Positions 19,801 through 64,000 of a stretch of 64,000 nt of DNA are shown here, one piece after another. The stretch comes from Liolophura sinensis (Eukaryota; Mollusca; Polyplacophora; Chitonida; Chitonidae), in contig NC_088295.1 in assembly GCF_032854445.1 (NCBI RefSeq), positions 58,571,249-58,635,248 on the forward strand. The letters are read 5' to 3'. The position numbers and the translations under genes are program-made. How positions within the stretch are numbered: the first letter of the stretch is position 1; each line of letters starts with the position of its first letter. The notes below the pieces were generated by a model. The model searched no databases and was not told the origin of the DNA. It was given only the letters and a program-made list of their open reading frames with translations.

Positions 19801-22800
19801 TAACTGCAAACCTTCAATACAGTTCTTAATTAAAATTGACGTGACTAAAATAAACGCACAGTTTCATCCGTTTTGTTTAATCCTGTGGACGTTTTAAACT
19901 CAGATGGCGAGTACATTCCAAGAGAAATAGGTATAAAATCCTGCTCCAACAACCAGGCTACTCTCTTCTGGGCTTCTGGCGTTGATGACTCTCTGGTGGA
20001 ATATTACAAACTGGAGTACAGAGAAAACGGTGAAGGTTGGAAAACAGAACTCGTCAGAAATCCTGGAAAGTTTAATCTTGTACAGACCACCTTGCCCGAT
20101 GTACGATCTGGAGTGTTCTATCAGTTCAGACTTCAGCCTGTCTCGGCCATGTTCTCGTTGGAATACGTTACAGCCAACTGCACTATTCTGAGTGAGTCAC
20201 AGGCCAAATATTTGCTAATATCACGTTTAAGTGCCTATACATGTAGTTAACAACTGGTTTATTGATTGATTAACTGATTGGTGTTTAAAATCACCTGGTA
20301 ACTTAGACGGTGCTCTTGAATGGAAGAAGTCGGTGGGCCCGGGGAAAACCTATAGGCTTTGGCAACTAATTGACAAAGTTCCGGAGAAGTGAAGCTCCGA
20401 GTTTTACCCACAGGAAGACCTTGCTGTGTTCGACAAAATGGTGGAAGTCAAATGATCTAAAACAAATCCACGTGTAAGACTAACCTCCGAGACGTGTGGA
20501 CTGCTCATTGTCACCAGTTCCGAGATAACTGACCAATCCTGGAAGTGAACCAGCGATAGAAAGACAGGACAAAGATGTCCACGCCCCACGTTTGGTATAA
20601 CGTTCTATTGTGTAGCACCAAGTGCATTGTACTCATCACATGAAAACTGCATTAGGGCAACAACACGGCGGACTTAAAACTTAGAAACCATTTTTACTTA
20701 TGGTGTGTGCTTATCTGTTACAGGTTGTAAGTGGAAGTTTTCACCTATCTTGTTGACATCGTCTACAATTTTGTTTTCATTGAAGTACAAAGGCGCATTG
20801 TCATCAGCCAAACATTTTTAATGGCTTATGACAGAGGGATAAAGTGACGCAGGCCTGTTAATCATATGGATAAGTATCGTAGAAATATTGACACTGTGAC
20901 GAGATGAAAAGTACGACGTAATAAAACCAAAACATCAACGATCTTTGTTCTTTATTGTTTCAGATTCCCAGACATGTGAAGGATTAAGCAGCACGCCTGA
21001 GACAGGCCTCAGTAAAGCCGCCATGTTAGGTGTGGGGTTGGTGGCTGGTATCGCTCTCGTCAGTCTCGCAGTTGTCATGGTGACGTGCTGGCTTCTCCGC
21101 AGAGGACGATTAACATATCATAAAGGTTAGCGATCATGATTTCACTAATCACAATCGTCTGTATTTATGACCACGTGCAATAAATTTCCGCAGTCTGGAA
21201 TCATTTCCATAATTTATGAAAGACTTCCAATGTTCAAAGAATGATAAGAAAATATGACGTTCTCTTTCATTCAAATATTTCATGTTTTAGAATTGCGAGA
21301 GTCAGACAAGCAGACTGCAGACCATGACATAAGGTAGGTGTGCGACAAAAATAAACGGAAATTACTGGTTCTCAGAATAGATTCTAAACTAAGCAAATAA
21401 TATGAAAAGATTTTTTCTCATATATATAAATGATTCAATTAAGCGAAGAATCCTCTCTGCAAAATTCTTTATTAAATACACCTTGTATTAAGTATAATGA
21501 CACTTAAATACACCAACGATAAACACTTAAGTTACAAAATATAAACTTTTCGCAAACCCTTCAGATCTGCGAGTCATTAAGGACAGAATCACATTACCTG
21601 ACTGGCTAACGGTTTACGGCTGTATACACACTCAAACCTTGCTTCAAGCTATTAGGCAGGTAACGTTTTGTTAATAGCTGTTTGACTCCATTCCCTGGTA
21701 ACTGGTTTTTGAATTATGATGATTGCTGAATGTTGGAATGGAATATCTGTACACAAGTGCTAATGAATTCTGTACAAAAATGTTGATATCCACAGAAATG
21801 CTGAATGCAAACTAGGAACAAATGCTAGAAGTTATACTTCAGTTTGAGCCAAATATCCTTTTGTTTAAAGCTATGATTAAGATACTTTTTGTCTTAAACA
21901 ATCTTTCCACCATTCCTGAAGATTGTGAAACTGTGCCATCATGTATCACTTCACCGGCAGATAAAATTTGTTGTGTTCTATATCGCGATAAAAACGTTGG
22001 GAACCCCATCAATGTATACTCCCAATATTGTGAGACATTGAAGTCAAGAATACCACAGAATTACAATTGCTGTGTCGAACGAAACCAGGAATTTTACTAA
22101 TCATTAAATTAAATTTGTTACATATTTACATTACAGCATGCAGGGCGTTGCTGAAGACATCGAACAACCTGAACCTCCTCCGCTTGGTAAACTCATATTA
22201 GCTTAATTTTTTGACTTAAGTTTTTTACTTTAAACATACTGTTGTTAAGAAGTGGAGGAATTTATCAAATAATTAATTTTCGACATCAGCAGATATTATC
22301 ATCATTAATCAAATAATCTTACTTTATTAATTTTGCATGATGTAAGCAGTTTTCTTCAGGTAAATGTTATCCCTCCTAAGAGGTTATATAGATACCGTTA
22401 TTCATGTGCATGCCAGGTAGTATAACATATAATTTAGACATACAGCATATAGAGAAAAACAAGAGCGGCGACGACAGTGTGATAGCTGGGAAATGGTCAA
22501 ACGTAACAGGTGAAATATGGCCTGTTGTCAATTTACTTCATTTAGGGTTTTATTCTAACTGTTCACGTAAAGGCGTAAATAGTGGTAATTTACACGCCCC
22601 ATAGCACCATGGCTTAAGCAGAATTAGCGGTGATGTTAGCTGCACTTTATTACATGCCATCCTTGATGTCAGATTTAACCCTTTTTTTTCTTAGATGTAT
22701 TTATTAGACTCCAGACAGCTATTTACATAAAGATTTTGTTTTGCAGATTGTACAGCAAATTGTATTGCAGAATCGATTAGTATTCATACATCTTTGATAT

Positions 22801-28613: not shown

Positions 28614-31600
28614 ATGAATGAAGCTGGGCCTTTGCCACCACCTTGTAGTACACCACAGGATATCCACCCTGTAGCCGTCAAGGGATTCAGTCAGGTGAGC
28701 TGTTTATTAACTGAATACAAGCTACCAATTGTGTACAGATCTATTAACCTTATTGTCATACGTATTTATACTTGCAGGCTTTGTTCCCTGTGTTCTTTTG
28801 GGAGACGCCTACAGGCCTTGATTCGTTTTTTATCTATTTTTTTCGTTGAAAACATTATCTAGGTTATAGCGCCATGTTCGATGAAGTGATCTACTCGGAA
28901 AGTTAGAATCAATCACAAGTTACGAAATTTTGTGAGGTGTTGCATACCTGCAATCGTTCTTTTCCCTGATTTTCAGGAAGGACAATATGACCGTAAACGT
29001 CCGGCATATACCGACTCGGCCGTGGATTTGATTAAGGATTTACTATTGTCGGAGGGAAAGGAGGAAAACAAAGACAATCCAGGTGTGAGAGTATTCTACA
29101 ATCAAAAAATTAATTTTAACAGAAAGTCTGTTGTCTGAGTGAGGTTAGAATGTAGTTATTATAACATAACGCTGTGTCATATTCAACATAATATCTTTTT
29201 ACTGCAATTGAATCTTTATGTTCAAATCTAATAGCCCGATTTGCCGCTAAGTAGATCTGGGAAAGATAATATCCTTATTAACAGCCATTTACTCTTGCTC
29301 CAATAGAATTCATCCTTTCGTGTTTAGAGAAATTTTTAAGTTTGATTATCCATCGGTCGGTCAGATGGATGGCTGAATAAACTTGCTTGGTTCGTTTGAC
29401 CGGTCGCCTTTTCAATCGTACCGTTTCGTACCGTGCGTCTGTTGATCTGTAGATCGGTCGGACGGATGCAGAGCCGGCCTGTTGTTTCGTCGGTTAGTTG
29501 GTCGTTATGCCAACTTCATTTAACCGCTTCATTTTGCCTCTGCTCTTTACGAGTTTGCTGTGTTTCTGATTGTGTCACAGGCATCTACGATGTGGTAGAA
29601 GTTGGCAGCGGAACTGGCAAGTTTACCCTCAGTTTTCTTGACCGGATTGAAAAGGTTAGGATTGGATGTCTTCTTGCCATTTTCTATTTGTCATTCGTAC
29701 AGTGCGTTTGTAAAATCAGTGACTGGGACTGTCAGCTAGGCCAATTATTTTCCAAACTGTATGCATTATAAAGCTGGAAATGTCTCTCTGTTTTATATTT
29801 TCCCGACAGAAATTACACTTTAAATGAGAAATGGTATAAGTATATTCTAAATAGATTCGTAGAACAAAAAAGCTAGATGGACTTCTTTTTTTAGCAGTTT
29901 TTATTTTAGCAGTCGAACAAAGTTGCTACAAAGAGTCAACATTTTGTAAGTGCTGGTAAAGCCTGCATTTATTTTTGGTCAAAAAATTGGTGCTTGTGTA
30001 TACTTCTTCAGTCTACCCATTTAATATTCATCGGGGTTGTAGCGACTTCTCTTAAGATAAACTTTCCCTTTTCACTTTGCAGCCAATAAAATATCTGGCA
30101 ACGGAGCCACTGGGTAATATGCTTGGAGTTATCAAAGAGAAGCGGCCCGAAGTGTTCACCCTGCAGTGTGCAGCACATGATCTACCTCTTCCTGACGCTT
30201 CTGCTAAGGTAGACTCTATAACCTAATAAGTGTTATATCCGCAAACAACGGTGATCTATATCTAATACCGTAGCTAAAACGTCTAAAAATATATCTTCTA
30301 AAATATTCAGATGACTTGTACGTGTAGTACTGTTACCTTTCAATCGTTAGGACACTTGGCATATTATGACGGTCAGTTTTATTGAGGGAAGGAACCGGAA
30401 TAATCGAGATAAACCACACACCTTTGGCAAGTTACTGGCGAACTTGCGAACCCACACGAACCCACGTGTGATGTACAGATATGCCCATCAGATTGGTGGA
30501 AGACAAATATACTGGTATACTGAAAAAATCTCACCGTGCACATATAAAGGTCGTTTGAAATACTGACGCTGTACATATACTACATATACTGTACTATAGA
30601 AATCGACTTTCTATAAAATATAGAAAGTTTAAATGACACTATATAAATTAGTATAAAGTGGCCTCGGCTTAATCCTAATACTCGAAACATCTGAATAAAT
30701 TAATTAGTCAAACACGATTTTAATCAACAGATCAGTCACTTCATAGCCAATGGACTCGATTATGCGGATATTTATAAACAAGGGTATTTTCTGTATTAAA
30801 TCAGATGGTTATAGCGGCCCAGTGCTTTCATTGGTTTTCTGACTTGTCCAGCCTCACACAAATACACAGAGTGTTGGAACCTGGTGGGAAACTAGGTAAA
30901 GTACTTTTTTTTATTTTAAATATATATTTATTTATATTGTATATTTTATTGATATTTTATTTAATTGTGCTTTTATTAGCTTATTTGCCTTCTCGGGCCA
31001 TGAAAGGGTTTCTTGGCTCAAGTTTCCAGTGAAACGGAGCAAGAAACACACATCCATACAGGTGAAACCATCGCACATCCATACAGGCGAAACCATCGCA
31101 CCTCTACACAGGAGAAACAAACGTACATCCACACAGGGGAAACCATCACATATTCATGCAGGTGAAACCAAGGCACATCCATACTGGTAAAACCAACACA
31201 CATCCATACAGGTGAAACCAATACACATCTTTACAGGGGAAACCATCTTAAATCCATGCAGGTGAAACCATTGTACAGCTTTACAAGTGAAACTCTCGTA
31301 CATCTGTACAGGTGAAACCAACGCACATCTGAACAGGTGAAACCATCGCACATCCATACTAGTGATACCAAAGCACATCCACCCAGGCGAAACCATCACA
31401 TATCCATACATGTCAATCCAGCACACATCCATACAGGTGAAACCAATACACATCTGTACAGGGGAAACCAACGCACATCTGTACAGAGAAACTAACCAAC
31501 ATCCATACATGCGAAACCAACCAACATCCATACAGGTGAAACCAACACTCATGTATAGATGGCAAACTATCACACATCTACACAGGCCAAACCATCGCAC

Positions 31601-33641
31601 ATCCGTATAGGTGAAACCAACACAATCCACACAAATGAAACCAACACACATCCATACCGGTGATACCAAAGCACATCCATCCAGGCGAAACCATCACATA
31701 TCCATACATGTCAATCCAGCGCACATCCATACAGGTGATACCAACGCACATTTATACAGATGAAAACCAAGGCACATCCGTACCGGTGAAACCAAAGCAC
31801 AACCACACAGATAAAACCAACGCACATCCATACAGGTGAAACCAACGGACATCTACACAGGCCAAACGATCCTACATCCGTAGAGGTGAAACCATCGCAC
31901 ATCCATACTGGGAAAAAACAGTGCACATATATACAGATGAAACCAACGGACTTCTATACATGTAAAAACCAACGCACATTCACACAGGTCAAACCATCTC
32001 ACATTTACACAGGAGAAACTATCGCAAAGCATCGCACGTCTATACAGCTGAAAGCATCGCACATGTACACAGGGGAAACCACCACACATCTATACAGGTG
32101 AAACTATCGCACATCCACACATTTGGAACCATCGTACATCTATACAGGTGAAATATACGCGCATATATACTGGTGAAACCAACGCCCATCTATACAAGGG
32201 AAACCATTGCACATCCATATAGGTGAAATCAACGCACATCCATAAAGATAAAACCATCGCACATCCATACAAGTGAAGCCAATGCACATCCATACAGGTG
32301 AAACCAACGCACATCCATACAAAGGAAACCAACGCACATCCATACAAAGGAAACCAACGCACATCCATTCCCTACCCATAAACCTGACCACCGTTAAAAT
32401 CTTTGGGTACAGTGTTCAACGTGGATCATATAAATAAATAAATAATGATCGCCAAGATTTGTGAAATAATGGACAACATCCAGAAATAATAAAGAAATAT
32501 CCAAAGGATGATGAGTACAATAAAATGATATCGACCAAGTAGGTCACATCAGGTTAAAAGCGTATAATTTTTTTTCCACTTTTACGATTAGGCTAAGATT
32601 TCATATATTATATTTATAATTTATTACTTCTAAATATAACAAAGATATCAATTTGGATGTGTTCAGCCATTTCTATTAAAAATTTTAGTTGTAAAAACAA
32701 TGCTTGCAGGGTGAGTTAAGGGTGAAACAATGCATAAAATGTTAGTTTTAAAAACAATGCTTGCATGGTGAGTTTACGGTGAAACAATGTGTAAGTTGTT
32801 AAAACGGATGGCCTGTGAGAAGCTGTCTAACTTGTTACAATATATGCATGTGAAGGCTCTCTGTTTTCTGTAGGCCTATGTTGTTTATCATATGCGTTTG
32901 CCATCTGACAGTTCTCATATGGAACAAAAGAGATGTCTCCGTACCGTGGATTGGCGACTTGGGGGACCTTTTAGAGGACATCCACACCAAATGCAACACA
33001 GCACGTCATCAAAATCAGGCTTGGAAACGAATTTTTGACACATACGCTGGATTTGAGGAACTAAATCACGTTTCTCTACCAGGACCATCAATAAAAGTGA
33101 GTACTCACCCACTCACGCACCCACCAGACAGACCAACGCACCCCCGACAAAATTCAAATTAAATTAAGCTATTTATTTTATCGGAACAGCTTTAAAATAT
33201 TTAAATGTAGCGGATTCTTTGTAAACTTTTTTTTACAGTTTGCTGTTTTAGTCATATAGTTTTAAGGTATGTAGTTTCTGAATTCGGGAAATTGGTTTTT
33301 TCTTCAGACCCTTCCTACTTATTACCCCATCCGCTAGACTCCATTTCGAAAGTCGTATTAATGAACATAAACTCCTTGATGGTAAACGCAAGACTTTATT
33401 ACTAACAAAGCTTGAGTGAATGGGTTCATCTTTTTATAGGCAATGTACGAGATCTATTCTTTTCCAGGGAAGCGTAGAAGAAATCCTGGCTTACTTTTCG
33501 ACGATAAGCGTGCTGTCCATATCAGAAGAAAACATGGCAGTTGTGTCTGAGTTCATCAAAAACCATCCAGATTTACAAGGACAGGCAGAAATCACCATAC
33601 CGTTTCGTACAGATATCTACTGGTGCAGTAAGAAGATATGA
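28614..33641 (+). CDS. Class I SAM-dependent methyltransferase, copy A (methyltransferase-11 type)
   Basis: Seven exons, all GT..AG and phase-consistent: 28614-28694, 28977-29082, 29581-29654, 30083-30208, 30805-30895, 32912-33096, 33468-33641 (TGA 33639-33641), giving 278 residues. Motif I is VVEVGSGTGKF (residues 67-77), binding SAM. TEP at 94-96 supplies the acidic ribose-binding position. The AQCFHWF segment (134-140) and HRVLEPGGKL precede beta-strand 5, VLIWNKRD. The C-terminus IPFRTDIYWCSKK fits the small cytosolic methyltransferase-11 family (eukaryotic relatives of trans-aconitate methyltransferase, such as DDB_G0268948-like proteins). Its substrate is unknown. The acceptor of exon 6 was set at CATCTGACAG by the paralogue; an earlier AG would read a stop. 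Copy B lies 9 kb downstream in the same orientation with identical exon lengths. No signal peptide or membrane span. Confidence 0.9.
29112..29236. repeat. Palindromic element, partial copy, intron 2 of methyltransferase A
   Basis: Contains AACAGAAAGTCTGTTGTCTG, then TCATATTCAACATAATATC and GAATCTTTATGTTCAA. It matches the left half of the copy at 39692-39910, in the same intron of copy B. The right arm is missing. Confidence 0.7.
31045..32370. repeat. 25-bp minisatellite, about 53 copies, intron 5 of methyltransferase A
   Basis: Units follow ACATCCATACAGGTGAAACC plus a five-base variable joint such as ATCGC or AACGC, with period 25. Scattered substitutions and few indels occur. The period is not a multiple of three, so the long open frames through it on both strands are artefacts. 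A shorter array of the same unit lies in intron 5 of copy B (42710-43180). Confidence 0.92.
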
Positions 33642-40600: not shown

Positions 40601-43600
40601 CTTTCTCCCGAAGAAAGTCGTTATAGCAGTTGTTACCGTTGAGGTCACAGACACTTATTTAACATCCAGACTGACTGTTGGAGTTTTAGGAAAACAGTCG
40701 TTTAAAGTCCTTAAAAGAAAGCTGAGAAACATTTTTTATATGTCAGTCCACATCATACACTCCGTATTAAAAAAAAAATAACCGAGTATTCCATCTCACT
40801 GAAGATCTTTGAATTTTAGATCTGATGAGTTCATTCTACAGTAAGAAGGTTGTTGCATAGCTAGAAAGGTATTGTATGGTATTGTAAGGCGGGGGAATCG
40901 GCCCCAGTGCAAGAAACTGTGGATCTCCAGTAGCGAAGCTGACCATAGCTGTGAGTGACAGCTGCTGACACACTCGTAAGGCTACTTCCTTTTTGAGTTC
41001 TGTTTTACTTCTCTTTTCCTGTTTTATGGTAAGCATGCGGTTTATAAAGCTCCAAACATGCACTGAAGCGATATATAGATCATAAAATGGAAAAGTTGTA
41101 GCCGGCTCCAATCACACTGAAATATCCCTTTTTGTGCATTAGACACGGTAGAGTTATGAAAATAACTGCAGTACAAATGTAGCTTTCTGAAAAGATCTTG
41201 AGCACACAGTTATGCACCAATCGATTAAATCAATATATAACAAATGTAACATTTCAGTCTTATATTTCCTCTACTAACATGGTAGCTAGTGGAACCCGTG
41301 CTCTCATCCAGGATTCACGTGTGATGTCGCTATAGTTGCTAAATGTTACGTAATACCATAGCTTATCCATTCTAATTCATAACAACACTTATTTAATACA
41401 AGACTGCAGTTATTTTTACTAACACAAAGGTATATTTTCAAACAAAAAATGACCCGCCAAGATACCAACTCTTCCCCGTTATGCAAACTTTTCTCCCCAG
41501 CCACTTCTTTAGTCCACTGTACTCTGGAGGTTGCCTGATAGATCATTGCAGAATTACAGATTCTGAACTTGCTAAAATATTACAAAACTCATCACATTAT
41601 GAAGTTTATGTTTTACACATCAAGACAAACGTTAATCAAAACAAAACTCTAACAGCACGTAGAAATACACGCATGAAGGTTTCAGTAAATATATTGTTCT
41701 AGTTAACGTTGATCTTCATGCTGTAAAATAAACAGGCAGTGCCTCATTTAAACGAAAAAATTTTTATCGAGAGTGCATTTTTGGAGAGTTGTTACTAAGC
41801 AACCATCTCTTTTATGGTTTTATAACGTTCATGAGTGCTTCAACTAAGTTTTATACTTCTGGCTCCGAAATTTCCAGATTGTGGTGTGCTTTTGAAATTT
41901 GCACTTTCTTATCGTACCTCTCTGGGGCCGATTCTCCGCCTTACCGTACCAGGTCCTTTCGGAAAGAAAGGATTGTGCGCTGCGTTTATGTTGATCCATT
42001 AATAAGTGACATGCCTGAAGATGACATTGCTCTACAACGTTTCTTTTTTAGCCAATCAGATATCTGGCGACAGAGCCTCTGGGTAATATGCTCGGAGTTA
42101 TCAGGGAGAGCCGCCCCGATGTGTTCACCCTGCAGTGTGCCGCACATGCTCTGCCACTTCCGGACGCGTCTGCAAAGGTAGGCCATACACAATCCTAGCG
42201 AGCACTTCAGCTGGTAGAGCATGGTTCGCTCCTCCATTCCATTGGTTGCATTCCTGTAAAACTGCATTTGGTCACAGGCCTTGGAATTTCGTTGTGTCGT
42301 AACGGGTGTCAGGCCCATACTAAACAAATGGCATGGTATGAACGGAGTTTGAAAGGATAATATTTTACATTTTATCGTAGTTTTTATAAAACCCATATTT
42401 TACGAAATATGTGAAGGTACGTGAATAAAAGATCAGCCAGTGCAATAGCTAACAGACTGTTCTAATATTTATATTATACAAAAACAGATGGTCATAGCTG
42501 CACAGTGCTTCCATTGGTTTGCTGATCTGTCTAGTATAACAGAAATACACAGAGTTTTGGTCCCTGGTGGGAAACTAGGTAAAGTACTTCTTTTTATTTT
42601 TCACTTTACTGAGGCCTTAATTGTGCCCTTCATTAGTTTGTTTTACAGTTATGGCCCGGATAAGGATTCAGAGTGAGTAAAACCAGACAGACCCAAGCGA
42701 AAGCAACAAACATGTAAAACCATTGTACATCCATACAGGTGAAACCATTACACATCCACACAGGTGAAACCATCGCAAATTCATGCAGGTGAAACCATTG
42801 CACATCAATACAGGTGAAACTAACAGACATTCATACCGGTGAAACCATCGCACACCCAGGCGAAATCAACGCACACCCAGGTAAAACCAATACACATCCA
42901 GGTGAAACCAATGCACATTAATACAAGTAAAACCATCGCACATCCATATAGGTAAAATCATCCCACATCCATACAGTTTAAAACCATTACACATCTATAC
43001 AGGTGAAACCATCGAAAATTCATACATGTGAAACCAACGCACATCCATATAGGTGAAACCAATGGAGTCAAGGTGAAACAATTTCACATCTATAGGGGTG
43101 AAACGAACGGATATCCAGGTGAAAACATTGCACATCCATACAGGTGATACCATCGCACATTCACATAAGTGAAACCAATACGATGAGTTCAGTAGATCAC
43201 GTGAGATTCAAGGCTTGGAAAATAGTTATTGTTCTTTTCTTTATTCGTGGTGAATAGGTGAAATATTTTTTTATTTATTTATTTATTTATTTAACTGGTG
43301 TTTTACGCGTTACTCAAAAATATTTCAATTATGCGTCGGCGGCTGGCATTGTGGTGTGAGGAAACTGGGCTGATCCCGGACAAAACTAACAATGAACTGG
43401 GCATAAACTCACAGCGACAGCGCCAACCTGGCTAATTCCCTCGGCTACTAGGTTAAATAAGAACGTTACTTAACGGTAAGTCTTACTGTATAAGCTCGAG
43501 GAATTCTGCTGAAAATGTTAATTCTAAAACGAATACATGTATGGTGAGTTGGATGTAAAACCATGCGTGAAATGTTAAAATGAATGGTCTGTGAGTAGAT

Positions 43601-53400: not shown

Positions 53401-56400
53401 CTTCATTTGAACAAAGTTTCATTGTTTCATGTTTTCCGTGCTATTTTGCATCCGTTTTATAACAGGCAAGGGGGGCCTCTGTGGCTCATTTGGTTAGCGC
53501 ACTAACGCAGTGTAATGACCCAGGAGCCTCTCACCAATGCAGTCACTGTGAGTTCAAGTCCAGCTCATGCTGGCTTCCTCTCCGTCCCTATAGGGAAGGT
53601 CTTGCAGCAACCTGCGGATGGTCATGGGTTTCAACCAGGCTCTGTCCGTTTTCCTCCCACCACAATGCTGGCTGCTGTCACATAAGTGAAGCATTCTTGA
53701 GTACACTGTAAAACACCAATCAAATAAAATATATAAATATAGACAGTAGTTTTTTTTTTATGTTTGTGCCAGTGTATCCCATTATTTTCATTAAAGCAAA
53801 ACACTGACTTGTGCTAAAAATGTTTTCATCCGTATTACTTATTATCATTTATTTTTTCTCACCATTCTCATCAGGAGAAGATTGTTCCGCCTGACCCTAT
53901 AACCATTGTGGAAAAGAGAAACACTTTACACAGGTTGAATCAAGTAATCCAGTATCGACTAGTCTCAACTGACCTGCCACGACAAATGAGAAGACTTAGA
54001 ATAGGTGAGTCTTAAGAGAATGTGACATCATATGTAATTTATCATTGTGGTTGTAGTGTGGGAATGAAGCACGTGCTTTTCATAGAATTGCTACAAGAGA
54101 GTCATTTGAAAATTGAGGTGCATGGACAAAATATCTTATATTGTCACTCACTATAAACGGTACATTGAGAAATCATCAAATGTATTTTATAATTTCAGAG
54201 AATGGCAGAGTTAAGTTTCTGGTGGAATATGAATTTGAGGTAAGCTCGTCATATTTCTCTTCTGTATTGGCTTGACCTTCTTGTTCCAACTGTGACACTT
54301 TCATTCCAGTTTATGTGTGACATTAGAAAAATGGTAATACCATTGAAGTGAAACCTTATGATTCCCTAGATTGCTGTTTTAGTGTGAATGTCACAGAACT
54401 TTAGGAATATAATTCTCGTAACTACCTGGACCTCTAAATGTGGGGAGGTCTCACAGCAACCTGCTGGGTTTCCCCCCGGCCCTGCACGGTGTCCTGCCAC
54501 CATAATGCTGTCCGCCATTGTATAAGTGAAATATTCTTGAGTACAGCATAGAACACCAATGAAATAAATAAATAAATGTTGCCCCCCAAAAATGCTGATA
54601 TAGGAATGAATCCTCAGTCTTCTGTTAGCATTGAAATCACAAGTATTATAAGTAGCCAAGAAGATACATGATTAAGTGTGAGTGATTGTGAGGATGTTGT
54701 TGTTGTGCCTCAGGTGACCTTGACCCTGATGGGAGATAGTACCACCATACCCTGGAGGCTATTGGATATTGATATACTAGTCGAAGACCACGAAACGGGA
54801 AGTAAGTTGAGCTTGTACTTAGTCATCATCACATCAAACTTGGCTTCTGTCTTCAAGAAACACTTTTTCACTTCATTGCATAGTACTGTATAATTTATCT
54901 GTCTAGTTTTCACTTTTATTTTTTTTTAAATGGTAATGGAACACGACAGCCTTTATTAAGGGGAATGAAACTTCGAAAGTTCATGATGTCTAAAACATTA
55001 AGTTACATTTAGTTAAATCAAAACATGCCATCTCTGATATTTTGATGTAGGAATTGCGCTCATCAAAGAAACAACCTTTAAATAGTGATTTTACCTGTCT
55101 TGTTGCTTTTGATGAGAATTTTACCCTGTTGCTTGTTGAGAATTTCTACTTGTGAAAGATTCTAACAAAAAACAAAATAACTTACAGAGGAACATTTCAA
55201 CATTGTCATTTTTTGAATATTTTTTACAGGTGGAAAAAGCTTGGTGCATTCATTACAGGTAAGGAAAAATTAGTTTATGTTTTAAATAGAGGATTATCAT
55301 GAGTCACTTTCTTGAACAAACACTGTTAAAATTTTAAATTCAGAATCAATTTGATATGCCAGTGATGTTCAACATCGTATGGCCCTTTATGCTTTTTAAA
55401 GTCATCCCATTCATTATGGTCGTTCAAATGTTACTGATTGTGGACCGACTTTAATCTGCAGTATTAACTTCTGATATGAAGGAGCCAGGGTCTAATAGTC
55501 ACAGGCACTTCACTTTCATTCACTAGAATACATAACGTGTGAGTTCACACCCTGCCTTGAATAGGGAATTTGCAGATCTCCAAGCTCACTGCTTTTTAGG
55601 CCTTGGCGGCATTAAGCAAGAGATGATCCTCATTGAAAATCACTTGTCTTCCACCAGTATATCTATGCTGCATGTGAGAAAGTTTGTCATAAACTTTGCC
55701 AGGAGTCAGTGGTTTATGCCAGGCACCCTTGTTTCCTACACCCACAAAACTGAACACCGTCACATAATTCAGAAAACAGTTCTTGAATTTGGCATTAAGC
55801 CACAGCCAAATATTTATTTATTTGATTGGTGTTTTACGCCGTACTCAAGAATATTTCACTTATACGACGGCGGCCAGCATTATGGTGGGAGGAAACCGGG
55901 CAGAGCGGGGGGAAACCCACGACCATCCGCAGGTTGCTGGCAGACCTTCCCACTTACGCCGGAGAGGAAGCCAGCATGAGCTGGACTTAAACTCACTGCG
56001 ACCGCATTGGTGAGGGACTCCTGGGTCATTACGCTGCGCTAGCGCGCTAACCCACAGCCAAATATATATTATATAATAATATAATATTATAAATACATTT
56101 GATCATTTCCTTCCAGGTCAACTACATTCACCAGCTGATACAGACCCGTCTACTGGACAATGACAAACCTTTACATGACTTGTACAGAGTGCTACGTATC
56201 CTTTCTTTACACAGTGATTCGCGCTCAGAGCGTTTTGGGATGTTGTCAACTTGGGATAATTAGATTCTCAATAAGCAAATGAGAACGATATTCAGTGTTC
56301 GCAATGAAGGTCAGCTAGGTCATTTTCGATGGGAGGCCTGTTGGCCAGTTGAATGTACATGTGGTGGTGATGGTTAATGCATTACTACTAGGCTACCTAG

Positions 56401-59400
56401 AAAGAAACCTGAAGTGATTTCAAATAATTGTAATTGCTAGGACCTGTGGTAAAACCTGAAAATGCAATGCCTATCCCAAATCAGGGTAATAGAGTAAAGG
56501 AGTTTTGAGATCGCACTCTTTTGTACAGAGCCGTAAAAGGGACATGGCGGGGTTTTTTTTTGAACTGGGCGTTTTTTTTATTTTTTCCACTTTTGCAATT
56601 AAAGTTTTTCTTTTTTAAGCACCCCCCCCCCCCCCCAAAAAGAAAAATTCGCAGAAAAATAGATCAGGTTAGAGTTTTTCTAGTTTTTTTTTTTAGGCAG
56701 GGGAAGAAAAAAAGAAACACTCCCAAAAAAAGAAACAGATCTTGGCCCTAAAGATAATCAGCCAAACAGATCACAACTTTTTTTGTGGTTTGGTGTAAAT
56801 CGCGATAAATGCAGCCAGATGATTGGCTGGTTAACTTGGAGTTAACTTGAAATGATAGCGTCACATACTAGGGCTCGAAATCTTTTTCTTGGAGTTTTCC
56901 TCTTGTTTTTTGATCTGCTAGAAAAAGAAAAACTCCAACCTGATCTTTTTTTCTGGGAGTTTTCTTTTTTGAAAGAGGGGAGGTGGGAGGCAGGGTACTC
57001 GCTTAAAAAAAAAGGAAAGAAAAACTCCCACTGCAAAAGTGGGGGAAAAAATGCACAGTTAAAAAAAAAGAAAGAAAACCGCTTTGTCCCTTTTATGGCT
57101 TCGTACTATTGTCCTGAAGGTTTGCATCACCATAATGCTCCGAGACTAACCCTTACATGATAATTTTTGGGGGTTTATCTTGATTTTTGTGCATGTGTGA
57201 AGGATATATTTTGTTTGCCTTAACTCTGTCCCAGATTGTTTTTGCCAATCCTTGCAGTTAGAAGTGCTACATTCTCAGGTGAGGATTTTTACTTCCGAAA
57301 GTATTTCTGAGTAAAAAATTTTTGAAGGTTTTGGCATAAATTTTATTTCAAGTATCTGGTTACAGTGCCGCTTTTTGTCAGAGGTGTGACTCGAATACCT
57401 GGCAAAAGGCAGTGCTTCATTCTGGACCCTCTGGTTTCATCCACCAGTTCAACCTTATTGCAGCTATGGCATTCGGCACCAATGTAATAAATGAGTTAAC
57501 ATTTCCAATAAATTGGAAACTTTTAAATTATTTATTTATTTTTTTTATTTTTTTTTTTGTGCATACAGATGTATTTAAGTAAAGCTGCAATAATTATTAA
57601 ACATGAGTAAATGATGGAGATCATGTATTACATCGGTTAAATGCTGTCAGATAATGTTGGAAAGATGAACATTTCATGTTAACAGACTCTGCGGTTGATC
57701 CGGGAGAGGCTAGGGGACAGTGTACGAGTTGAAGACTACACTGTGGGGAAATGTCTGGTGATGTCATACTGGAGGTAATGTTAAGTAGATTCTGATTACA
57801 AACATTCTTGAGTGTTGCATTTAACAATAATAAAGTAACTAAATACGGTTCTGTAGGTCATATGGGAAAGTTGTTGGGTTGGTGTTTCCTCCACCCGTAA
57901 ATACTAACCCTATATTACAAATGAAAAATTCTTGGGTATTGTGTTCAACAAGAACGAAGTAAGTAAATATAGCTATCAGTATGTGTGTGAGTAATGTTTT
58001 GAAAAAGGTGTTAATTATGCTTCAGAGAAACTATGAAGAAATCTAATTGACTTGGTAAGGCCATCCTGAGAAATGTTTGGTCAGGTGTTGAGAAATTTGA
58101 TAATACATGTAGAAAAGTTGTTGCGGTATGGTACCAGTTTTCTCTGATACGACCAGTAAAACACTGCATTTCACGAAGGAGATCTTTTTGCAGACTCTGA
58201 GGAAGTCCAGGAAAATCCTGAGTTTGTACCATTAGTGGCTATGTTGAGTTACCCTGTTTTACCCCTGCTGAAGATTCTGCAAAGGGAGGGAAGGAAAACA
58301 GCTGGCTTTTATGTCTGTAACATAATTGCCCGAGTCTCTGATCAGGCTATTCTGGGTCCAGTTGTTCAAAACTGTATTAGCAGTTCAGCCCTGTATTAAC
58401 TTTAGTCCGGACTTTAGTTGGTTTTGTACTAGAACAAGGTATTAAGACTTAAGCTTGGCTTAACTCTTAATACACTTTTGAACAACTGGCCACAGATGTC
58501 TTTGCCTAGAATACATGCAGTGTATTTTATTAAGTTTGGGAACCTGCGGATGGTCGTGAGTTTCCTCCCACCATTATGCTGGCTGTTGTCATATAACTGA
58601 AATATTTTAGAGCACGGCCTAAAACACCAGTGGAATAAATAAATAAAGTGTAGGTGTTCAATCAAATCAAGTTTACATGAGTAGGCTTGTCACATGCAGC
58701 AGATCCCTGAGAGCTCTGCATAGTTTCCTTCTCTAAAAAACAATATTGCTGTCATAGTTGTGTTGTTGTCTTAAATTTAGCGTAGCAACAACTTGCTAAT
58801 TAATCGAAACAGGATTATTATGTTGTAAAGTATTTAACAACAAATTTTCATTGCAGAGAACAGCAGAAGAAAGAAGCCAAGTCTGCTGAGGGTCCAACAG
58901 GTAAGTGGACATACACGTGTGTGTAATGATAATGTGACATTACAGACTCATTGAGCTAGGCACATAACAGTTGACCTTCAGCAATAGCTTTAGACCCTGT
59001 GTAATTACATCTGACCCCTAGCATTAAGATTTGGCCCCCAGCAATAAAAGCTGATCCCCAGCAACAAGAATTCACCTCCCACCTCTAACAGTCGACCCCA
59101 CCGATAAAAACCTCCTACCCAGGTATAATGACAGTTTACCCAGCTGTAACCGGTGTCCCCTCCCACCCACCCCCCACCCCTCCATAACAGTTGACTCCTC
59201 CCCTCTTTCCCAAGCAATAAGAGTAATAGTAGTTGAGCCTTGTTTCTGTTGTAAACACTTCGTTTCCATTCCAGTTTTCAAGCTGAGCATCCATGATTTA
59301 CCTTATGTAGATTTGTTTCTGTGACTGCTGTTGTAAACACTTCATTTCCATTCCAGTTTTCAAGCAGAGCTTCCATGATTTGCCTTATGTAGATTTGTTT

Positions 59401-61786
59401 CTGTGACTGCTGTTGTAAACACTTCGTTTCCATTCCAGTTTTCAAGCAGAGCTTCCATGATTTGCCTTATGTAGATTTGTTTCTGTGACTGCTGTTGTAA
59501 ACACTTCGTTTCCATTCCAGTTTTCAAGCAGAGCTTCCATGATTTGCCTTATGTAGATTTGTTTCTGTGACTGCTGTTGTAAACACTTCGTTTCCATTCC
59601 AGTTTTCAAGCAGAGCTTCCATGATTTGCCTTATGTAGATTTGTTTCTGTGACTGCTGTTTTAAACACTTCGTTTCCATTCCAGTTTTCAAGCTGAGCAT
59701 CCGTGATTTACCTTCTGTAGATTTGTTTCTGTGACTGCTGTTTTAAACACTTCGTTTCCATTCCAGTTTTCAAACTGAGCATCCGTGATTTACCTTCTGT
59801 AGATTTGTTTCTGTGACTGCTGTTTTAAACACTTTGTTTCCATTCCAGTTTTCAAACTGAGCATCCATGTGTCAGAACAGGATCAAGGTAAACCTCTACA
59901 GATCAGTCACGTACCCGCCATCTCACCCGAGGAGAGTAAGAAAGTGGGACTCGCCATCAGGGTATGTACCAAGTTATCGTGACGAGATAATCCCTTGTAA
60001 ATAAAATGTTAATTTCCATGCATGCCACTAAATGCTCCACATCCCCGTGTCCCTGTTATGACCGAGTGATACAGCATTCATTTTGTGAGGAAGCGGTCCA
60101 GGAGTTGAACTCACACCAAACTCATGATAATCCGCAATCATGATATTTCCTTGACTCAGCACCCAGCATAAGGTGGATAGGCCGTTTTGTGTGAGCACAC
60201 GGTGTAGGATATCAAGTATGGTGTATTTTGAATAGCATTTCATCAAAGGAGAAGAAAATTTCAATATCAATCAAATACCATTGAAAAGAATATGCATTTC
60301 CTTGCAGGTGCATGCCATAAAAAAATTCTTTTGATAAATTATAAATAAAGTCTGTGCCAAATGGGCGACTCCATTTTGCCCAAGAACTAGTCCTGAAGTC
60401 TTCTGTGTTAGGAGGAGAATTGCTGTGGGAAACCGCTGAAGTGCAGTTCATACATTTCCGGTAGAACTCTTCTTTCTAGAAGGTAGCAAACAGGACAGTT
60501 CATTTTCTGCTTGGGGAAAAACCGGGAAACCGTAATGTTGGACGTAGGTTCCGAGTTTACATGAACAAGCTGGCAGTTTTAACAACTCTCATTGGCTGAG
60601 AGGCAACACACCCCCAGCATAAGTTACAGGGTGATAAATATGGAGGATGCGATGGACTCAGCGATTTATGCCAGGTTAGCTGTTTTCAGGCGTTACGCGT
60701 ATAGCAAGGAAAAATAGTAAAATTATGCAGCAGGCACCACCAGATAGAAAAAAAATGTGCTCTTTTCAGCCTATAGTGTCATAGCTAAGTTTTCTTCTTG
60801 AAGGAAGCAGTATAAATGCGTTAGCTTCAGGACAGGCCACAAGGAGACACTACACCTTACAAGATTAAATAATGGCAAGCGCAACCATAAACCATTGGCA
60901 AACTGGGCAACTCCATATTATCGTACGGTGAAAATAATACATGTTTTCAGCAGAGCATAGGGTGACCTGCTTGTTGATAATAAATATGAATATAATAATT
61001 TCTTGAATTATGATTTAAGTTGGTGTGTTTTGTTGCATATTTTCACTGGATGTGGGCTGGAGGAGAGCTACATGTATGTTATCCATCTTTTCCATAGTGC
61101 TAACCATTACATATAAATGTGAAATTTTAATGTGAAATTTCATTAAACTCTTTGTTTTCCTTCTTCCTTCCAGAGTGATCATTTATCGATAGAGAAACTG
61201 TTAGTACAAACTGTTGAGATAAGAACGCTGGCTAAATTGAAGGTTGGTATATTAACAAGCGTATAATTTTATGAAAACTTGTGGACTTCATGTAACTTTG
61301 TGTCAAGTAGATGTTGTGACCGTTAATTTGACCATGACCGTATAATGTTTCATAAATTTGATCCCTGCCATGGAAGTGATGAATGCGGTATGTCTTACAA
61401 TATCCACTTAATATGTGTAAAATACTTTGGTATTAGACTTGTACCCCAAGTAAAGTGAGAACTTGATATTTGTTGTGAATTGACTGTATAATGCTGAATT
61501 TGTCATTTAAATTTATTGTTTTCTCACATTTTTCAGGATTTGTCAAAAGAGCTACAGAAATACATAGATGGGAATTGTAAGTTGTATTTTTGTTTGTTTT
61601 TACTGCCAAGTGCATTTGAATGCATTGCATGGTATTTTTCTTTTGGCTTTCCTTCGATGGTGGAAATATGTTTGCCTTATTTTCTTATAAGTAGGGCAAA
61701 CAAATGAATGAAGGAATGATTGTGGCTTAGCGCCACATCGGCAATATTTCAGCCATATCGTGGCGAGGCAAACGAATGAAAACAGC

Positions 61787-61821
<35 letters not shown>

Positions 61822-64000
61822 TTGTTTTCATTCTTTTTGGTGGGGACGGGGGGATACAAAGAAAACACACAATGTGTCCTTCCTCTCTGTTTTATAGGTG
61901 AAATCCGAGACATGCCTCCTTCACTACAGATCCCAGTTATCTCCCCTTGTCTGAGCTGTGAGGTGCTCCGTGTGGCTGTGGACATTCAGAGAGGCACACT
62001 GTTGGCATCTGTGTCATCAACAGGTAACCACCTTAATAAGCTCTATTGTTTAGTCTATTACTGGAACTTCGGTTTCTGAAAAAAAAAAAAAAAAAACAGC
62101 AGAAGGGGTTTGTAGGCCAGGCACTGTTTGACACATTGTCAGCAAGCTGTGACTTGATGGGGCCTTGTACATTGGGTACTGCGCTCTCAAAAACTTGAGA
62201 ACTGTTACATCATGACAGGGTTTGTAGATGTATGCCATTTCAAAGCATCATATTTAAAACTTTTTTCTCTTCTTCACTTGAACAGACCACAGTGTCATCC
62301 AGGAAATAGAAGATGTGCTAAATGGTGATAGACGAAATTTGGATAAACTTCTCATCACACTTAGGTAAATGGTTATATATATATATATATGTTCGTAGTG
62401 ACTGCACTAATTTCCGAGGTAAGTGAGTTGAGATAATACTGCTTTTGAAACTAGCTTTTTCTTGCAGCCTCAGCATTTGCCTTAATGAATTTACCTTACC
62501 ATGTTTTTCTCAAATGGAGTAGGGTGTCTTCTTTCTAAAAAAACAAAAAAACACCTGTTAATCTTCTATCAACATACCTTTTTAACCTTCAGAGTACCTT
62601 CAATCCTAAAACGGAAAACGTTTTAACCTTGATACAGAATACCTTTTAACTGGCCAAAGTTGGTAGAGCGTCTGCTTCGGCAGCGGTAGATCCAGGTTCA
62701 ATCCTGGGTCGAGTCACGCCTAAGACTTTAAAAGAGGAAGTTCTAACTTCCTCGCTTGGCATTGTCCATGAAGGGCAACGACTGGTTGACCCTCATCAGT
62801 ATAATGGCTCAGGTAGGGTAGCTTACTTGCGTTCAGTAAGTCGTCTCACTGAAGCAGCACTAGATAAAAGAGCAGTGGAAATCCGTCCTGGAACAAGGAG
62901 GCACATTACATACACCTTAAGGATTCCTTCGTCGTCATATTTTGTTGAGTACGACGTTAAACCCCAAGCACTCACTCAGAATACCATTTCACTGTCAAGC
63001 ATAATATATTTTGACCATCTGTCAGCAAGCTGCGGATGGTCGTGGGTTTCCCCCGGGCTCTGCCCGGTTTCCACCCACCATAATGCTGGCCGCCGTCGTA
63101 GAAGTGAAATATTCTTGAGTACGGTGTAAAACACCAATCAAATAAATAAATAAATCTTTTTACCACAGTTTTAATAAATTCATACAATATGTTTATGGGT
63201 ATATGTTTTATAGAAGGTCTTCCCATTTGTTTATCTTTTCTCAGACTTCATTTGGCCCTGCTTCGGTGTGAAAAGTCAGTCCAGCATATACCAGCTGTGT
63301 GTCTCAAGAAACTACCATTGATTAATCTGTCAGGTCACCCCTTAGAGAACCTCAGTAAACACATCATCTATGTCAGACTGCCCAAACACCTCAACTATTA
63401 CCTGGTAAGTTAAGCTACAGTGGAGTGGGTATAGAAGGTGTTGGTCAGTATAATTGATGATGAAACTCCTAAACTGTACAGTGTGTGAGCCTTTTTTAGC
63501 ATGTTAATGGTCAGCTGTGTTTTGGGTTTTTTTAATATGTATGCCACATAAGTATTGATTGTTTTGTGGGCAGAATGAATCTTTTTCAATGTGAGAGGAG
63601 ACCATGACAGTAAAAGTAAAACTTGATAATCAACTAATTTGTGGAAAATGTTGACTTGAAGACATATTTACATGATCAGAAAGCTTTGAAAAATAGGAAA
63701 TCATAAATCATCAAGATTGCACAAAGTGAAAAAGTGTATTTTTAGTTTTATTTTTCTTTAATTTTTGCATTTTTGCATTTTTTTTAGTACTGGCTGTAAA
63801 ACACGAAATGTAATAATGTAGAGCTGTCTTGTCAAATTTTTTTTCAAAGTTTCGAAATTATAAATGAAGATCAGAGCAACATGCCACTGGCATTCAACTC
63901 TTTCTTCTGTCTTTTCCAACAGGTCGTAGAATTGGAGGAGTGTGTGTCGCGGACAGTGGACTACAAGTACTACCTGCTGGGGGTGACACCGACCGCTTAC
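50453..64000 (+). CDS. MED14: Mediator complex subunit 14 (MED14), N-terminal part, runs off window
   Basis: Twenty exons: 50453-50583, 50884-50910, 51984-52089, 52355-52449, 52881-52959, 53875-54004, 54199-54239, 54714-54801, 55230-55258, 56117-56195, 57235-57278, 57686-57774, 58857-58900, 59849-59961, 61174-61242, 61537-61576, 61898-62023, 62286-62364, 63245-63404, 63923-64000+. All keep frame and give 549 residues. Recognition rests on strings near-identical to animal MED14: [46 protein letters not shown](D/K)..[29 protein letters not shown]-like [17 protein letters not shown] and YYLVVELEE. MED14 is the scaffold joining Mediator head, middle and tail in the nucleus, bridging transcription factors and RNA polymerase II. 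The start at 50453 gives a short Gly-rich leader before the conserved SLATLIDFI. No stops or frameshifts were seen. Intron 13 carries the 82-bp acceptor array, and other introns hold SINEs and a foldback element. Confidence 0.95.
51330..51692 (+). mobile_element. SINE family B, full length
   Basis: Plus-strand copy: tRNA-like head (CTCAGCTGGTAGAGTGTCCA, B-box-like AGGGTCAATCCTTGG), TTAAAAGAGGAAGTTCTAGC, TAGTATAATGGC, and an end resembling GTTAAACTTTAAGCACTTAC with a CTCA tail. It lies in MED14 intron 2. Confidence 0.85.
53471..53738 (+). mobile_element. SINE family A, full length (best reference copy)
   Basis: The tRNA-like head is well preserved: CTCTGTGGCTCATTTGGTTA with A-box character and GTGAGTTCAAGTCC as B box. 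Then CTGCGGATGGTCATGGGTTT, CCACCACAATGCTGGCTGC, TTGAGTACACTGTAAAACAC and an AAATAAAATATATAAAT tail. It lies in MED14 intron 5, sense orientation. Confidence 0.88.
54421..54577 (+). mobile_element. SINE family A, 5'-truncated
   Basis: Plus-strand 3' part: GGGGAGGTCTCACAGCAACC, CCACCATAATGCTGTCCGCC, TATTCTTGAGTACAGCATAG and an AAATAAATAAATAAAT tail. It lies in MED14 intron 7. Confidence 0.8.
55486..55813 (+). mobile_element. Putative third SINE family (C), diverged
   Basis: GTGAGTTCACACCCTGCCTT is a B-box-like segment. It is followed by TAGGGAATTTGCAGATCTCC, AACTTTGCCAGGAGTCAGTG and an end TTGAATTTGGCATTAAGCC. Similar ends occur at 34075-34110 and 45065-45110. The SINE A at 55814 is inserted in its tail. 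Family assignment is inference from shared blocks. Confidence 0.5.
55814..56051 (-). mobile_element. SINE family A, full length, with target duplication
   Basis: Minus-strand copy between direct repeats CCACAGCCAAATAT (55800-55813 and 56052-56065). GCGCTAGCGCAGCGTAATGA head, core and end are all close to consensus, so this is a young insertion. It lies in MED14 intron 9, 50 bases before exon 10. Confidence 0.9.
56523..57106. repeat. Foldback element, about 230-bp imperfect inverted arms
   Basis: GTACAGAGCCGTAAAAGGGA at the left pairs with the complement of TCCCTTTTATGGCTTCGTAC at the right. Pairing continues through A/T-homopolymer-rich arms to about 56752 and 56866, leaving a loop of roughly 115 bases. 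A C15 run lies in the left arm. No ORF of substance. It is located in MED14 intron 10 and would form a long hairpin in the pre-mRNA. Confidence 0.8.
58540..58649 (+). mobile_element. SINE family A, 5'-truncated
   Basis: Plus-strand 3' part: CCTGCGGATGGTCGTGAGTT, CCACCATTATGCTGGCTGTT, ACGGCCTAAAACACCAGT and an AAATAAATAAA tail. It lies in MED14 intron 12. Confidence 0.78.
59263..59890 (+). repeat. 82-bp tandem array of a splice acceptor plus exon start (MED14 intron 13 / exon 14)
   Basis: Eight units with exact 82-base spacing. Each contains TTTCCATTCCAG followed by TTTTCAAGC(T/A)GAGC(A/T)TCC. The predicted AGs end at 59274, 59356, 59438, 59520, 59602, 59684, 59766 and 59848. Only the last continues into true MED14 coding sequence (exon 14 from 59849). 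In the others the exon-like part reads into GATTT(A/G)CCTT.TGTAGATTTG and reaches an in-frame TGA within about 17 codons of the acceptor. The array is therefore a multiplied intron-exon junction. Confidence 0.93.
61700..61815. repeat. SINE-like fragment followed by TA microsatellite
   Basis: TTAGCGCCACATCGGCAATA then TTTCAGCCATATCGTGGCG is text I associate with molluscan SINE ends. A (TA)n run at about 61783-61813 follows. It lies in MED14 intron 16. Confidence 0.5.
62649..62975 (+). mobile_element. SINE family B, full length, with target duplication
   Basis: Plus-strand copy with a clear tRNA-like head (AAGTTGGTAGAGCGTCTGCT; B box AGGTTCAATCCTGG), TTAAAAGAGGAAGTTCTAAC, TCAGTATAATGGC, AAATCCGTCCTGGAACAAGG and GTTAAACCCCAAGCACTCAC. 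It is flanked by imperfect CAGAATACCTTTT / CAGAATACCATTT. It lies in MED14 intron 18. Confidence 0.9.
63020..63156 (+). mobile_element. SINE family A, 5'-truncated
   Basis: Plus-strand 3' part close to consensus: AGCTGCGGATGGTCGTGGGT, CCACCATAATGCTGGCCGC, TATTCTTGAGTACGGTGTAA and an AAATAAATAAATAAATC tail. It lies in MED14 intron 18, 45 bases after the SINE B copy. Confidence 0.82.

Follow-up and report, generated by a model that had tools for sequence, protein, structure and literature searches.

How is the correct 3′ splice site found when eight near-identical copies of it stand in a row before a single exon? The question is raised by a 64,000-nucleotide stretch of contig NC_088295.1 of Liolophura sinensis (positions 58,571,249 to 58,635,248, forward strand; hereafter the window), in which an 82-base tandem array lies over the boundary between intron 13 and exon 14 of MED14, the gene for Mediator subunit 14. 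The explanation favoured here, with fairly high confidence, is that the array is a neutral minisatellite, which the gene tolerates because the last acceptor alone is set in a normal exon. It would belong with the minisatellite-like duplications of intron–exon boundaries in lancelet genes that are termed 'mirages' in the available portions of two papers (PMC3087553, PMC3902484).

The boundary in MED14 and its copies

The gene model comprises 19 exons that were picked by reading, anchored, and spliced by a script. All 18 introns of the model are GT-AG, the GTs being partly a matter of construction because the script shifted every donor to whichever GT lay closest. Spliced together, the exons read open for 523 residues; the start was set by eye at the ATG at 50453 (exon 1 is counted from this ATG only), and 'exon 14' is the number that results when the coding exons are numbered from there. 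Residues 21–523 of the product align to residues 49–550 of chain N of PDB 7emf, Mediator subunit 14 (E 2e-168), which we take to be the human protein. Three Pfam families—Med14 (PF08638), RM2_Med14 (PF22981), and RM3_Med14 (PF25065)—score above cut-off in the same product. Judged by this homology, the gene is MED14, the identity given to it in an earlier note on this DNA; it extends past the end of the window, with its 3′ part outside view. The alignment continues across the join of exons 13 and 14, and for this reason exon 14 is placed at 59849–59961 and the acceptor at 59848 is taken as the productive one. The features at the boundary are as follows.

58857 to 58900, plus strand: MED14 coding exon 13, ending in donor CAG, then gtaagt; leaves G for the first codon of exon 14 (in-silico splicing, protein match over the join)
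58901 to 59848, plus strand: intron 13, 948 bases, containing the array (in-silico splicing)
59849 to 59961, plus strand: MED14 coding exon 14 of 113 bases, beginning with the 21-base head that is copied in the decoys (in-silico splicing, homology)
59962 to 59967, plus strand: exon 14 donor, AGG, then gtatgt (matrix score 5.9)

A donor-like AAG/GTAAAC also lies within exon 14, at 59888, with a matrix score of 7.3 that exceeds the 5.9 of the modelled donor. Since similarity to MED14 runs on beyond it, this site was not adopted in the gene model.

Upstream of exon 14, Tandem Repeats Finder reports a repeat at 59246–59869 with a period of 82, 7.6 copies, 97% matches, 0% indels, and a score of 1094. 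When the bases of 57000–62000 were shuffled, 19 of 20 shuffles gave no row from this program and one gave a single row. Eight AGs fall at 59274 + 82k, with k from 0 to 7 (59274 to 59848), so that all eight positions named in the earlier note are present at exact 82-base steps; the extent given there, 59263–59890, needs a small correction, the similarity running from 59246 to 59869. Each of the seven full units consists of the 21-base exon 14 head and the 61 bases that lead up to the next acceptor, and the AG and pyrimidine tract are kept in all eight copies.

59246 to 59869, plus strand: 82-base tandem array over the intron 13/exon 14 boundary, 7.6 copies (Tandem Repeats Finder)
59246 to 59274, plus strand: left partial unit, with pyrimidine tract and decoy acceptor 1, lacking the GTGAC branch-site candidate
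59275 to 59356, plus strand: full unit 1, from decoy exon head 1 to decoy acceptor 2; differs from units 2–4 at 4 sites
59357 to 59438, plus strand: full unit 2, decoy acceptor 3 at its end
59439 to 59520, plus strand: full unit 3, the same sequence as unit 2, decoy acceptor 4 at its end
59521 to 59602, plus strand: full unit 4, the same sequence as unit 2, decoy acceptor 5 at its end
59603 to 59684, plus strand: full unit 5, 1 difference from unit 2, decoy acceptor 6 at its end
59685 to 59766, plus strand: full unit 6, 6 differences from unit 2, decoy acceptor 7 at its end
59767 to 59848, plus strand: full unit 7, 8 differences from unit 2, productive acceptor (8) at its end

No second boundary duplication was seen in the mapped gene. 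When both ends of each of the 19 exons were compared, 38 windows in all (one of them being the start codon of exon 1, which is not a known junction), further copies, with up to 8 mismatches allowed in 36 bases, turned up for the exon 14 acceptor alone. Beyond the array, the 82-base unit found only matches of 10–11 bases within the window (E up to 5), and a similar piece of 10 bases lies at 59240–59249. No source was found for the bases that separate the exon head from the pyrimidine tract: the left flank scored 12 against them, with a shuffled mean of 11.2 and 209 of 500 shuffles scoring equally well.

Reading frames and the last acceptor

In-silico splicing separates the eight acceptors sharply. 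The frame stays open from 59848 alone, whereas exon 13 joined to any of the seven decoys runs into a stop after residue 343 (7/7), in exons that would be 195 to 687 bases long; skipping of exon 14 altogether gives a stop after residue 328. The test covered the eight array AGs rather than every AG of intron 13, and among those eight any other acceptor for exon 14 is ruled out by the closed frames of the decoys together with the MED14 alignment through the join. The claims that the last acceptor is the one of the eight that preserves the frame, and that seven decoys share its acceptor context and the same early in-frame TGA, are thus borne out. Because the stop sits within the repeat unit, its sevenfold occurrence is one event copied, not seven.

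Each unit also carries GT sites (GTAAAC in units 1–4; GTAGAT and GTGACT in units 1–7), which raises the alternative that exon or intron birth is under way, with some units spliced in as small cassette exons; an intron-gain model starting from mirages has been proposed for lancelet globins in the part of PMC3087553 that was available. The products speak otherwise. All 18 single cassettes tried, one for each combination of unit and GT (32, 46, or 58 bases), hit a stop, as does the 32-base cassette taken twice or three times, and the products end after 341 to 362 residues, so the cassette skipping offered in the earlier note as a second outcome fails in silico. Moreover, the best GTs inside the units score only 2.3–2.7 on the donor matrix, where the donors of exons 13 and 14 reach 12.7 and 5.9, respectively, and left-out true donors range from −3.0 to 12.3. 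Exon or intron birth is, on balance, scarcely to be expected here.

Under the favoured explanation, an 82-base segment reaching from about 61 bases before exon 14 to 21 bases into it would have been duplicated in tandem; unequal exchange or slippage would then have enlarged the array and made its units partly uniform. In the productive transcript the array would be removed as part of intron 13 at 59848. Exon definition would settle the choice of acceptor while branch site and pyrimidine tract are being recognised, a step that, taken by itself, is held to be somewhat likelier true than false. The rest of exon 14 and its donor follow only the last copy at a normal exon length (113 bases; from the decoys the distance would be 195 to 687), and it is on this account that exon definition would favour 59848. 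The other 18 exons measure 27 to 160 bases (median 79); only the last acceptor gives an exon within that range, and every decoy exon would exceed them all. A choice of the last acceptor, as the earlier note supposed, is thus demanded by the protein, although ordinary exon definition would suffice for it and no special mechanism need be invoked.

Composition is consistent with such a role for the exon. The 92 bases unique to exon 14 contain 16% T, compared with 25% in the other exons and 33% in the other introns, and GAA/GAG occurs in them 5.4 times per 100 bases, compared with 5.2 and 3.1, respectively; the decoy region has 42% T and 1.2 GAA/GAG per 100. The unique part of exon 14 thus looks like exon and the decoy region does not.

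Each of the seven full units further brings a branch-site candidate of its own, GTGAC; its A precedes the acceptor of the unit by 32 bases, and the left partial unit has no such candidate. The available text of PMC1431707 describes a rule, with known exceptions, that splicing goes to the first AG downstream of the branch site. Under this rule, with one candidate to each full unit and no AG closer than 46 bases upstream of the acceptor, the choice would be made at branch-site recognition: with the last candidate in use, 59848 is the first AG downstream. Use of a decoy would lead instead to the premature stop, and such transcripts would probably be lost to decay.

Mirages, chance, and the weighing of explanations

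The multiplication of a junction had been called unusual in the earlier note, a description that needs tempering, since the same anatomy is known as a mirage in the lancelet globin gene BflGb6 (PMC3087553, available part). The MED14 array shows several traits of this class: it spans the junction 59848/59849, its unit holds both intronic and exonic bases, and the unit is of minisatellite size (10–160 bases in the cited cases). In BflGb6, as in MED14, the unit joins the 3′ end of an intron to the 5′ part of an exon (exon 2 in BflGb6), and the inner units are homogenised whereas boundary units are not (PMC3087553, available part). Unit lengths differ—82 bases here, against 150–160 in BflGb6, 157 in BflGb9, and 10–72 in Adh3—and the seven decoys of MED14 compare with six and three repeat units in two BflGb6 haplotypes, according to the same portion of that paper. 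Lancelet PGBD5 likewise carries tandem repeats, of 60 and 108 bases, over intron/exon boundaries; unlike those of MED14, they are imperfect, and their unit numbers are 2 and 3 according to one assembly but 7 and 6 according to another, with splicing largely predicted (PMC3902484, available part). Mirages in Adh and troponin C are also cited there. In its anatomy, therefore, the MED14 array is an already known kind of structure, a mirage, and not a new mechanism.

As for splicing, Adh3 data and the authors' reverse-transcription polymerase chain reaction suggest that it is undisturbed by mirages, in the text of PMC3087553 that was available, and the authors of PMC3902484 suggest in like portion that the PGBD5 repeats are genuine and leave it unaffected. 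Human internal tandem repeats offer a more distant likeness: units of minisatellite length alter exon–intron structure and some activate cryptic splice sites; unlike the MED14 array, these cases are repeat-number changes in segmental-duplication genes, with no acceptor ladder before a conserved exon in the portion of PMC2812944 available. No boundary mirage outside lancelets was found in a limited literature search of one open library, and a mollusc-directed search there returned an ordinary 27-base intronic minisatellite in abalone and no boundary mirage.

Lancelets also bear on whether the array, though it stems from a real boundary duplication, is an artefact of assembly or copy number, with the unit number or even the entire array wrong. 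Units 2, 3, and 4 are identical, a type of repeat that is easily miscounted; haplotype 1 of BflGb6 was misassembled in the draft genome (PMC3087553, available part), and the PGBD5 counts differ between two lancelet assemblies (PMC3902484, likewise). Those PGBD5 repeats were nevertheless upheld by re-examined and new sequence data, as the same portion of PMC3902484 relates, and in MED14 the exon copy, like each of units 1, 5, 6, and 7, has a combination of differences of its own, so that at least these should exist. An artefact is accordingly very unlikely.

The differences among units also suggest how the array has evolved. Across the seven full units, 9 of 82 sites vary; the inner units are near-identical (2–4 identical, 5 one base off) and the outer ones divergent, with units 1, 6, and 7 differing at 4, 6, and 8 sites. 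Judged from this table of differences rather than from a tree, the pattern is that of concerted evolution within the array, boundary units excepted. The true exon 14 head stands a single synonymous base apart from that of decoy 1 over the 21 bases compared: copies 7 and 8 (59767–59787 and 59849–59869) have AAA where copies 1–6 have AAG. This synonymous change abolishes a second AG eight bases past the acceptor, which in copies with AAG scores 6.2–6.3 where a score was printed, above the real acceptor. In the decoys, three of the four variable sites of the exon head change the amino acid, as is expected of noncoding copies.

That the array should lie over a boundary at all needs no special cause, because 75% of random 624-base placements across the mapped gene (n = 12,327) overlap at least one junction and 10.3% overlap exactly one. 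Such overlap is expected in a gene with short exons, and all that selection would require is that the array spare the exon.

Several points weigh against the neutral mirage with its last acceptor chosen by exon definition. Among the random placements just described, only 6.0% met exactly one junction that was an acceptor, as here. Local signals do not single out the productive site: on an acceptor weight matrix built from the 17 other MED14 acceptors—a weak one, with left-out true sites scoring 0.4 to 11.1—the real acceptor scores 4.28 and ranks 12th among the 68 AGs of intron 13 and exon 14. Decoy acceptor 2 ranks first with 6.63, and the other six decoys take ranks 13–18 with 4.06. Choice by local acceptor strength is thereby rejected. 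No decoy has a lower predicted accessibility than the real site over the 12 bases ending at the AG: under two settings the real site has 0.011 and 0.008, and the decoys have 0.016–0.166 and 0.008–0.132, so that this comparison does not support RNA folding as favouring the real acceptor. Matrix scores and accessibility together mean that the last site is singled out neither by its local acceptor signal nor by folding. The GTGAC candidate matches only the relaxed branch-site motif NTNAY; matches to the stricter YTNAY lie about 51–56 bases upstream, past the nearest AG at 46, the exception being one in copy 2 at 12 bases. The composition of exon 14 was compared only after the hypothesis had been formed, and splice signals copied by mirages could act as cryptic sites, as is noted in the available part of PMC3087553. 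Lastly, acceptor use is predicted here from a single genomic sequence.

Decoys whose acceptor scores about equal that of the real site, all seven with an intact AG and pyrimidine tract and the same in-frame stop, are also what would be seen under regulated nonproductive splicing, in which decoys are used at a controlled rate and the premature-stop transcripts are degraded, thereby setting the level of MED14. The earlier note had named this as one of two possibilities; nothing observed in the sequence points to it in particular, and copying of one unit explains all of these features, the shared stop included. The splice core is not depleted of variable sites in the seven full units, with 3/37 in the part that starts near the branch-site candidate and ends at the AG, against 6/45 in the rest (Fisher p 0.50), in a young array that gives such a test for constraint little power. 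From unit variation, then, there appears to be no sign of selection on the decoys. In lancelets, mirages reportedly do not produce aberrant messenger RNAs (PMC3902484, available part), and regulated nonproductive splicing is judged unlikely for MED14. A related conjecture is that of a copy-number rheostat, in which each additional, equally strong acceptor would divert MED14 pre-mRNA to a degraded product and repeat number would tune Mediator dosage between individuals; it is regarded as very improbable indeed.

The rest of the window and the value of the array

Other repeats occur in the window. Four stretches of 7853–14008 are mirrored in reverse orientation in 17745–20197, with 77–84% identity; of four open plus-strand stretches in this mirrored region, two have Ig-domain matches that pass the cut-off, a third has an fn3 match that falls below it, and the fourth has no match. 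Between the mirrored stretches lie arrays at 14173–14446 and 17029–17157, whose units, by reading, appear to be one another's reverse complement. A 25-base unit with ACAGGTGAAACC forms two further arrays, at 31045–32368 and 42710–43177, which sit at matching places of a direct repeat (30798–31552 and 42481–43160, 68% identity). A donor-type mirage was considered for them and rejected: the unit holds AG/GT, yet the neighbouring donor, by reading only, is unlike the unit.

At 4677–5690, two adjoining open stretches in the same frame, separated by a stop, match a Tc3-type helix-turn-helix transposase and DDE_3 above cut-off and probably belong to a degraded Tc1/mariner-like element. At least six places, on both strands (10540, 11636, 25940, 26310, 53490–53739, and 55811), carry a dispersed repeat about 250 bases long and 69–88% identical. 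No Rfam family reached its gathering score in the window, and a scan in bacterial setting found no tRNA there. In a collection of viral contigs, which was not built for animal genomes, exact DNA strings went unmatched; the MED14 pattern was met in three stretches, none of them confirmed.

The value of the MED14 array lies in the comparison that it sets up. In minigenes studied by Reed and Maniatis in 1986, duplicated identical splice sites are said to compete in cis, with exon sequence and proximity deciding the outcome. Those were laboratory constructs, whereas MED14 presents a natural version with eight sites. With its eight near-identical acceptors set against one another in a single intron, this conserved gene amounts to a natural competition experiment and, because the local acceptor signals are about equal, junction counts alone would reveal the weight of donor distance and exonic sequence. 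If the host is a mollusc, as the look of its dispersed repeats suggests, the array would extend the mirage phenomenon beyond lancelets; for the study of how splice sites are chosen, MED14 offers an instructive natural test.

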